This document shows positions 3,209 to 7,938 of a stretch of 44,588 nucleotides of DNA, in pieces. The notes beneath the pieces were generated by a model. It ran no database searches and was not told where the DNA came from. It saw only the letters and a list, made by a program, of their open reading frames with translations. Source of the stretch: an uncultured Candidatus Saccharimonas sp. (GTDB lineage: Bacteria > Patescibacteriota > Saccharimonadia > Saccharimonadales > AWTP1-31); the NCBI GenBank assembly GCA_943353855.1, contig CALRBD010000003.1:1-44588 (forward strand), read 5' to 3'. Position 1 is the stretch's first letter. Every line of letters begins with the position of its first letter. Made by a program: the position numbers and the translations under genes.

Positions 3209-4249
3209 TTAAGCTTCGTTGAGTGTATATGTTGCTTTTGCAACTCGCTTGAACTGAGTCTTGCCCTGTAGGTTTAGAAGGATTGTAGTTTCCTTGACGT
3301 GCCTACTCTCAAGTACTCTTTTGACTATTTCTTCACGATGAAGAGGTTCACCGGCTTTTTTCAATACATCAGTAATGATGTCAGCTACTGTACCTTTCGC
3401 GTATCCCCACTCTTTGAGAGCATAGATACCACGGCCGATAAGTACAAAGCGTCCATCTTTAATTAGCTCATTATGAATTGCTTGAGTAGTCACATTCTTG
3501 CGCTTAAACTCTGAACCCTTAATTGCTTTAGCGATCTCATTAAAGTGCATAGGCTTGCCATTAACACTTAAGATAACGTAGATCTTATCGCGAATGTTCT
3601 TAGGGTTTACTAGTGGCCATTTAATGAGGCCCCATAGTCCGTTAAGGGTAGCAAGCTGCTTGCTTGTACTTGCGAGAGCGGCTGCGTTCTTGACACTTTT
3701 AATCGATGCTTCGTTAGCTATAGCATCTATCTTAGCTGGTTTACCGAGCTTCTTGATAGAAGTAATTATGTTATCTACGCTTGCTTTTACCTGCGCTGCA
3801 TCATTAGTAGCTTTAATGCTAACAGCGTGATGGAAGTGATCGTTATCTTCAATAACATGTAGTGACGGGCTTAAATGTGACAAGAATGAGATTCTGGATT
3901 GTGTTAGCTTGTCGTTGTCTCCGGTATAAAGACTTGTCAGAACTTTAACGCGAGCAATATCACCAACTGTATTTAGGTGATTCTTTAGCTTTTCCTCAAA
4001 GTCTTTTATGTGTGGTAGGTCGGATTCAGAAGCAGCTTTAAGCTTTATGACTACTGATTTTTCAAGCTGACGGACACGTTCCCGAGTGATACCAAGTAAT
4101 TCACCGATCTGTTCAAGTGTTTCTTTTCGATCAAAAAGACCAAAACGACGTTCGATAATCTCTCGCTCTCGTTCACGTTCAATGGTTGCGATGACGTCTT
4201 TAACCATCTGCTCCATTGTAGTTGTTCCGGTTTGTGCTGTTTCTGCCAT
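3209..4249 (-). CDS. sigma-70 region 4-like HTH protein fused to HARE-HTH (RpoE-delta-like) domains
   Basis: IIERRFGLFDRKETLEQIGELLGITRERVRQLEKSVVIKLK matches sigma70 region 4. C-terminal segments (IRDKIYVILSVNGKPMHFNEIAKAI... and VADIITDVLKKAGEPLHREEIVKRVL) look like HARE-HTH repeats. Confidence 0.75.
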   Translation of the reverse strand: MAETAQTGTTTMEQMVKDVIATIEREREREIIERRFGLFDRKETLEQIGELLGITRERVRQLEKSVVIKLKAASESDLPHIKDFEEKLKNHLNTVGDIARVKVLTSLYTGDNDKLTQSRISFLSHLSPSLHVIEDNDHFHHAVSIKATNDAAQVKASVDNIITSIKKLGKPAKIDAIANEASIKSVKNAAALASTSKQLATLNGLWGLIKWPLVNPKNIRDKIYVILSVNGKPMHFNEIAKAIKGSEFKRKNVTTQAIHNELIKDGRFVLIGRGIYALKEWGYAKGTVADIITDVLKKAGEPLHREEIVKRVLESRHVKETTILLNLQGKTQFKRVAKATYTLNEA

Positions 4250-6937: not shown

Positions 6938-6966
6938 TTGACTTTATGAAATATTTTTGTTATTAT
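6938..6966 (+). promoter_or_regulatory. predicted sigma70 promoter of a noncoding RNA gene
   Basis: TTGACT (6938-6943), 17-bp spacer, TATTAT (6961-6966); one mismatch per hexamer from consensus. No ORF follows for ~380 nt. Confidence 0.65.
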
Positions 6967-6972
6967 TGCAAC

Positions 6973-7316
6973 TTGTAATTCCTATTTTTTAGGTTTTACG
7001 TACCTTCTACCCCAAATTCTAACAATTGTTAGATTGTTTTAGAGCGTTAGAGCCTTAAGTTGTTACCCTCCACTTATCTTTCGTTGTTCTTGGTTTACCA
7101 AGTTCACGCTCTAAAACAAACTAACCCCTTTAACTAGCACCCACCGACTGTTTACAGATGGTGGTCCCGATTTCAAAGTGAGTCGAACAGATGATCTCGA
7201 TTTTTAATCGAGGCGGCACAGGCCATTATATATTTTAGGTTCTGATGCTTCACTCGGGTGGGTTGAAGGGTGTAATGAGCCTCTAGCGGTGCCCACCCCC
7301 TCTAGAGGCTCTTTTT
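6973..7316 (+). ncRNA. putative structured noncoding RNA or long leader (~345 nt), family not recognised
   Basis: Strong promoter upstream. Imperfect 20-bp inverted repeat GTTAGATTGTTTTAGAGCGT (7028-7047) / ACGCTCTAAAACAAACTAAC (7106-7125), one mismatch. Hairpins at 7089-7102 (CTTGG-TTTA-CCAAG), 7141-7164 (CCACCGACTG-TTTA-CAGATGGTGG) and 7196-7212 (CTCGATT-TTT-AATCGAG). Ends in an intrinsic terminator. No coding ORF on this strand. Confidence 0.6.
7277..7316 (+). terminator. Rho-independent terminator
   Basis: Perfect 10-bp stem GAGCCTCTAG (7277-7286) / CTAGAGGCTC (7302-7311) followed by TTTTT (7312-7316). Confidence 0.88.
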
Positions 7317-7347: not shown

Positions 7348-7938
7348 ATGATAGACCATACCTTGCCTGAATCGCGTATCGCCTTCTCCGGTTTTAGTGT
7401 GGACGCTCTTGAGTGTTGTCTAGAATACGGCGCCGCAAAATTATCACGAATTATTTCAGAAGAATCTCTTAATCTTCTAAGAGACAAAGGCGTTCCTCAA
7501 TCCCCCGCTCTATTATCGACAAGAATGCCCGAGATTGTAGGTTTTTTGAACCTTTTGGATATCAGAGACCTTGAAGATAGCAAATTAGTTGTAGATGTTA
7601 TCGACCCCTATCCCAATATTGGATCAGCCATGGAGGCTCATGTAGATAGTACTGCTCGCAAAGGCGTATCACTTCTAGTTCCATACTTAGGGTCACGGGC
7701 CCTATTTTCTTGCGATACTGAACCATATGACATCAATAATACGCCGCGTTTTCAAACGACATATGGACCTGGTGATGCAATACTATTACGACAAAATATT
7801 AACTCCGTGAACCAAGAGCCACGTAGCCTTAACCAGGCATGGCATATGGGAGTTGCTTCCGAGCATAGGACTCTAGTAACTATTGATTATCTTAGTGATC
7901 ATATTGCGGTTAGAGAATCGCTAACCGATAATAAATGA
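7348..7938 (+). CDS. orphan protein, possible 2OG-Fe(II) oxygenase-like fold
   Basis: 196 aa ORF with AHVDST ... YGPGDAILL ... WHMGVASEHRTLVTIDY, an H-x-D...H...R arrangement. 18-nt tail-to-tail overlap with pth. Confidence 0.55.
   Translation: MIDHTLPESRIAFSGFSVDALECCLEYGAAKLSRIISEESLNLLRDKGVPQSPALLSTRMPEIVGFLNLLDIRDLEDSKLVVDVIDPYPNIGSAMEAHVDSTARKGVSLLVPYLGSRALFSCDTEPYDINNTPRFQTTYGPGDAILLRQNINSVNQEPRSLNQAWHMGVASEHRTLVTIDYLSDHIAVRESLTDNK

Follow-up and report, generated by a model that had tools for sequence, protein, structure and literature searches.

A predicted structured RNA family of Saccharibacteria with a conserved CCUCC loop and a putative role in translation

Introduction

RsaE/RoxS, trans-acting small RNAs of Firmicutes, have conserved C-rich unpaired regions that are able to pair with G-rich Shine-Dalgarno sequences (PMC4409812). 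In alphaproteobacteria, AbcR1-type small RNAs are reported to regulate translation initiation via an anti-Shine-Dalgarno region (PMC6234868). The Saccharibacteria RNA that we describe here resembles the C-rich RNAs of Firmicutes, Staphylococcus aureus RNAIII among them, in having C-rich unpaired regions. It differs from them in that it has no sequence match to them, appears to be pseudoknotted, has no target shown for it and is present as one copy per genome, at a locus that is conserved. Presumably it is also larger than RsaE/RoxS. From AbcR1-type RNAs it is set apart by the lack of any Rfam match and by an unrelated architecture and host group.

Large structured RNAs of unknown role, such as OLE, ROOL, GOLLD and raiA, are another group to which the RNA can be compared. 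It is likewise long, structured, conserved and non-coding. We take these RNAs to be among the 4227 families of Rfam 15, against which cmscan gives the Saccharibacteria RNA no match. Structured RNAs of unknown role are, in a broad sense, already a known kind; the novelty lies in the RNA family.

The RNA gene and its locus

The locus occupies positions 6938 to 7316 (plus strand) of the window, by which we mean the whole stretch of DNA analysed (44,588 nucleotides). It lies between topA (minus strand), whose product has a Pfam Topoisom_bac match, and an ORF of 196 amino acids (plus strand). The source genome, G000, amounts to 590 kb in 36 contigs. The predicted features are as follows.

6938 to 6966, plus strand: promoter, sigma70-type with extended -10, TTGACT-17-TATTAT, block conserved in relatives (-35 TTGACT 6938-6943; extended -10 TG 6958-6959; -10 TATTAT 6961-6966; spacer 17 nt)
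6973 to 7316, plus strand: predicted RNA, about 345 nt (from promoter and terminator bounds, homologs and fold z of -6.2)
6975 to 6999, plus strand: P1, 5' hairpin GUAA..CCUA / UAGG..UUAC (predicted fold)
7001 to 7013, plus strand: conserved unpaired segment ACCUU-UACCCC, nearly invariant in Saccharimonadales
7018 to 7033, plus strand: P2, local hairpin UCUAAC/GUUAGA (predicted fold, alignment)
7028 to 7046, plus strand: P3, 5' arm (covariation)
7056 to 7076, plus strand: hairpin UAAGU/ACUUA with loop UGUUACCCUCC (7061-7071), the most conserved loop of the RNA
7067 to 7071, plus strand: putative anti-Shine-Dalgarno core CCUCC, within loop UGUUACCCUCC
7089 to 7102, plus strand: P4 hairpin with UUUA loop (sequence, predicted fold)
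7107 to 7125, plus strand: P3, 3' arm (covariation)
7126 to 7134, plus strand: P5, 5' arm CCCUUUAAC, pairs with 7262-7270
7141 to 7164, plus strand: P6 hairpin with UUUA loop, variable region (predicted fold)
7196 to 7212, plus strand: P7 hairpin, variable region (predicted fold)
7256 to 7262, plus strand: putative pseudoknot strand GGGUGGG, its partner being the terminator loop CCCACCC at 7292-7298
7262 to 7270, plus strand: P5, 3' arm GUUGAAGGG, pairs with 7126-7134
7277 to 7316, plus strand: intrinsic terminator, stem 7277-7286/7302-7311, nearly invariant loop CGGUGCCCACCCCCU, U tract (T5)

The original prediction had proposed part of this layout. The promoter that it placed upstream of the RNA (TTGACT-N17-TATTAT) is present, and relatives keep it as GTATTGACA...TTTGCTAAAAT. 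The 20-bp inverted repeat (7028-7047/7106-7125) and the terminator (7277-7311 plus T5) were confirmed, and all three further hairpins exist, two with UUUA loops at 7089-7102 and 7141-7164 and the third at 7196-7212. A convincing ORF was said to be absent; no conserved ORF is apparent, and the homologs differ in their longest ORF, from 0 to 102 amino acids.

Alone, the promoter match would be unremarkable (1.3 kb contain four promoter-type matches, with 3.9 expected by chance), and its significance comes from the conservation of GTATTGACA...TTTGCTAAAAT in relatives. The terminator was not listed by our scan, since the scan allows loops of 3–8 nt only and this loop has 15 nt. Hence, promoter and terminator draw their weight only from conservation in relatives. 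Transcription is inferred, without transcript data, and the RNA is expected to start near 6973.

The neighbourhood was compared across 68 loci, some of which are one place retrieved twice. The divergent neighbour belongs to a DprA-like cluster in 51 loci and to a TopA cluster in 13; downstream, a convergent Pth-like gene is found in 31, and the other downstream genes vary. Pth and TopA were checked with Pfam for the copies in the window, and DprA was named from sequence. One could argue that the RNA is a 5' leader or riboswitch for the downstream gene, since in the window it lies 5' of the same-strand 196-aa ORF with a terminator in between. That same-strand gene is not conserved, however, and at 31 loci there is a convergent gene instead. 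The RNA is therefore a stand-alone gene and not a leader; the leader or riboswitch reading is largely refuted by synteny, and we give it next to no credence. Alternatively, the locus could affect the divergent dprA/topA operon in cis, through supercoiling or promoter interference. A divergent dprA or topA neighbour in most loci, together with the conserved promoter, would suit such an effect, but position leaves the covarying stems inside the transcript unexplained, which makes cis action very unlikely in our judgement.

Comparison with known RNA families

Could the RNA be a highly diverged housekeeping RNA, namely 6S, SRP RNA, tmRNA or RNase P? The original prediction had recognised none of these and had suggested a cmscan search as the check on novelty. 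That search points to no known family: neither in the window nor in 28 homologous loci does Rfam 15 yield a match nearing the cut-off at the RNA, and the weak matches at RNA loci include animal miRNA models. RNase P RNA (RF00010) is encoded elsewhere in the genome (G000:C15:9595-9940, 254.6 bits), and the region of our RNA does not qualify as RNase P. The same holds for tmRNA (RF00023), which is found at G000:C2:23614-24017, with ARAGORN finding none in the window.

For 6S and SRP RNA the place is formally open, since both remain undetected in the genomes. None of 21 genomes has 6S RNA (RF00013) over the cut-off, and the RNA has no Rfam match to it. SRP RNA (RF00169, RF01854) gave no match and no core motif common to the genomes, in searches that were not fully sensitive, as Bacillus subtilis was missing from the positive controls in both. 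It was tempting to see the RNA as a replacement for SRP RNA. We dropped this idea since Ffh was undetected too: its M domain was not detected in the 21 Saccharimonadales genomes, compared with its presence in 14 of 14 controls. That neither SRP RNA nor Ffh was detected agrees with the lack of SRP already reported in Parcubacteria (PMC4508563). With RNase P and tmRNA encoded elsewhere, no Ffh M domain, no SRP core motif and no Rfam match in many homologs, descent from one of these housekeeping RNAs seems most improbable.

The family is undescribed in the literature that we looked through, which was limited to open-access papers. In the main text of a paper on RNA candidates from the human microbiome (PMC8040213), Saccharibacteria go unmentioned.

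Distribution in Saccharibacteria

The RNA is conserved in relatives by both BLAST and covariance model, as the original prediction would require. With a 401-base query, BLAST detected homologs in 34 of the 41 Saccharimonadales genomes. The first covariance model, built on the central stem, matched 23 of 389 genomes of the phylum, all from the same order. After retraining, which used these 23 first-round genomes, the model matched 207 of the 396 genomes from Saccharimonadia, with a single copy in almost every case. A few genomes have two matches; short contigs are among them (G012:C35 has 504 bp) and may be contamination.

Diverged copies occur beside dprA in genus g40, g42 and f6, as well as in families f37, f38, f39 and f40 of other orders. 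They came from dprA loci of genomes that the covariance model had missed or scored weakly. Their E-values (4e-5 for L149 and L148, 0.0002 for L155, 0.0006 for L140 and 0.002 for L145) are rough because the calibration was short, and the contigs stem from MAGs. The RNA is not universal at the dprA locus: four g47 loci have no copy beside dprA. Locus L147 is uninformative in this respect. Absent from Rfam 15 and found in most of the Saccharibacteria sampled, the RNA family is very probably new, with transcription again inferred.

Structure and covariation

The predicted fold has an energy of -109.3 kcal/mol, compared with -78.9 +/- 4.9 kcal/mol for shuffled sequences (z -6.2), and none of 100 shuffles is as stable. 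The minus strand folds almost as well. A minus-strand RNA is nevertheless disfavoured by the promoter, the terminator and the G-U pairs, all of which point to the plus strand.

Further evidence comes from the long stem P3, for which the original prediction had asked for a covariation test (7028-7047/7106-7125); covariation in relatives is indeed strong. Across 41 sequences 96.1% of the cells in its 18 pairs are paired, and 13 of the 18 pairs have two-sided changes. No shuffle out of 500 reaches the observed pairing, and slid controls reach at most 46%. The alignment was fitted to the covariance model and hence leans toward structure. The raw sequences themselves show near-total replacement of the arms, for example GUUAGAUUGUUUUAGAGC/GCUCUAAAACAAACUAAC in L002 versus GUUAGAUUACAUGCAAUG/CAUUGCAUGUAUACUAAC in L046.

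In P5 (CCCUUUAAC/GUUGAAGGG), all nine positions pair in all 41 Saccharimonadales sequences. If diverged copies such as CCCUCUAAC/GUUAGAGGG and CCCAAUAAC/GUUAUUGGG are included, pairing is 96.3% with five two-sided pairs; for this count the arms were picked by hand and joined by an artificial linker. Position 6 of P5 is U-G on the plus strand in 33 of the 41 sequences, and frequent G-U pairs of this kind agree with the predicted direction of transcription. The terminator stem, its arms selected by best pairing around the loop, occurs as 38 distinct stems that are 100% paired, with two-sided changes at all nine scored positions. P1 changes in sequence among relatives while its hairpin appears to be retained, as judged by eye and without a score. 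P2 and the base of P3 have GUUAGA in common, from which we infer that the two may possibly form a switch.

The alignment contains nearly invariant blocks, spaced by stretches of free length: the promoter, ACCUU-UACCCC, AAGUUGUUACCCUCCACUU, CUAACCCCUUUAAC, GGUGGGUUGAAGGG and, in the loop of the terminator, GCGGUGCCCACCCCCUC. The GGUGG of the putative pseudoknot strand is nearly invariant in Saccharimonadales. That GGGUGGG and CCCACCC form a pseudoknot beside P5 is inferred from complementarity and conservation, as these strands vary little.

If a structured non-coding RNA gene is recognised by covariation beyond controls, a promoter and terminator of its own and the lack of an ORF, then the locus qualifies. 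With transcription inferred, we are nearly certain that a functional RNA gene is real.

The CCUCC loop and a possible role in translation

Among 23 sequences, the hairpin with loop UGUUACCCUCC shows little or no variation. All members found, the diverged ones included, carry CCUCC in this loop, at its 3' edge wherever the hairpin is clear. CCUCC is the only loop feature that these members have in common, even those without the terminator-loop motif, such as f39. Stems such as CUAAA/UUUAG close the loop in the copies from f37, f39 and f40, where its sequence is ...CACCCUCC. A conserved, exposed loop of the CCUCC type is what one would look for in an anti-Shine-Dalgarno or C-rich riboregulator, and this RNA has such a loop.

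The loop also resembles the 3' end of 16S rRNA. Most loops of genus g40 (AUUACCUCC) are identical over nine letters to the 16S tail of G379, a relative from another genus of the same family and not g40 itself; other loops contain CCUCC. G379 and G133, which belong to different orders, have the same 16S tail, GGAUUACCUCC, and in each of these genomes the loop has a U before ACC. Only these two tails, both from U-type genomes, were read, and none of the C-type. Unlike the 16S tail, the motif of the RNA is enclosed in the loop of a hairpin, and in most members it has an additional C (ACCCUCC). Mimicry of the tail would predict GGAUCACCUCC tails in f37, f39 and f40, and GGAUUACCUCC in genomes with a U in the loop.

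In the mechanism that we propose, P3 would present an 11-nt loop ending in CCUCC, the long-range helix P5 would close the 3' domain, and the terminator loop would be tied to GGGUGGG by the pseudoknot. The loop would imitate the 16S rRNA 3' end (GGAU[U/C]ACCUCC) and influence translation in trans: either it would pair with Shine-Dalgarno sequences, or it would bind a factor by which the 16S tail is recognised. Our target tests did not reach significance, and the translation role remains tentative. The loop forms 57 duplexes of -10 kcal/mol or better with start regions, while shuffled loops form 42 on average and 76 at most. Upstream of start codons, GGAGGGUA likewise shows no clear enrichment. 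It precedes the starts of sodA-like, rseP-like and hpf-like genes in G379, an anecdotal observation with genes named by eye. The loop has one strong match in 16S rRNA itself (-18.7 kcal/mol, 0 of 100 shuffles). We rejected pairing with rRNA, because on inspection the match appears within GUGGGGGGUAUCGACCCCCUCC, which is self-complementary and so probably already paired. What also counts against the loop mechanism is how short CCUCC is and how common C-rich loops are. A new RNA family together with control of translation via an anti-Shine-Dalgarno loop, taken as one joint statement, is a serious candidate that we place a little below an even chance.

Almost as likely as the translation role is a protein-binding scaffold. 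The RNA would then function within an RNP or as a scaffold, with a dedicated protein bound by its conserved loops, and its anti-Shine-Dalgarno likeness would be coincidental. Several separate invariant segments (ACCUUAUACCCC, the loop, the terminator loop and GGGUGGG) and the core with its inferred pseudoknot point to a compact tertiary structure, and the mRNA target tests of the loop were not significant, both of which would suit a scaffold. CCUCC, on the other hand, is kept in all members found, even in those that lost the terminator-loop motif. The scaffold is a possibility that we take seriously without favouring it. Returning to the translation role, one could go further and see in the RNA a new functional class. 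It would be a housekeeping RNA, present in single copy and inherited vertically, that carries a copy of the 16S rRNA anti-Shine-Dalgarno tail in a fixed hairpin loop and thereby tunes translation or ribosome assembly globally, which we regard as unlikely though worth keeping in mind.

Significance

Saccharibacteria have very small genomes with little intergenic space, and the TM7x genome is 94% coding (PMC10768705). Most of the class, as sampled, keeps these 345 nt along with the promoter and the neighbouring genes, and the RNA is probably important to the bacteria. If the anti-Shine-Dalgarno reading is true, the RNA would represent a new way of controlling translation; if it belongs to a new class, translation or ribosome assembly would be tuned globally in a host-dependent bacterium. 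Many genomes that carry the RNA belong to family f35. We take this family to include cultured oral strains, in which case the RNA may be testable at the bench.

Other observations at the loci

Two RNA copies have inserts of roughly 150–250 nt at conserved sites, in L012 (G007) between P5 and the terminator and in L155 (G451) at the 3' arm of P3; considered as introns, these inserts have no Rfam match. Two loci of g47 genomes (L150 and L157) have dprA-like matches with one in-frame TGA each. The 196-aa ORF (window 7348-7938, plus strand) lies between the RNA and pth and has no Pfam match; among the loci examined, its relatives adjoin the RNA in genomes of the same genus only. Elsewhere in the window (3209-4249, minus strand), a protein of 346 amino acids combines sigma-70 region 4 and HARE-HTH domains. 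Finally, in a g40 genome a skipping-rope RNA (RF02924, 47.3 bits) is found on the opposite side of dprA (L143:1015-1105, minus strand).
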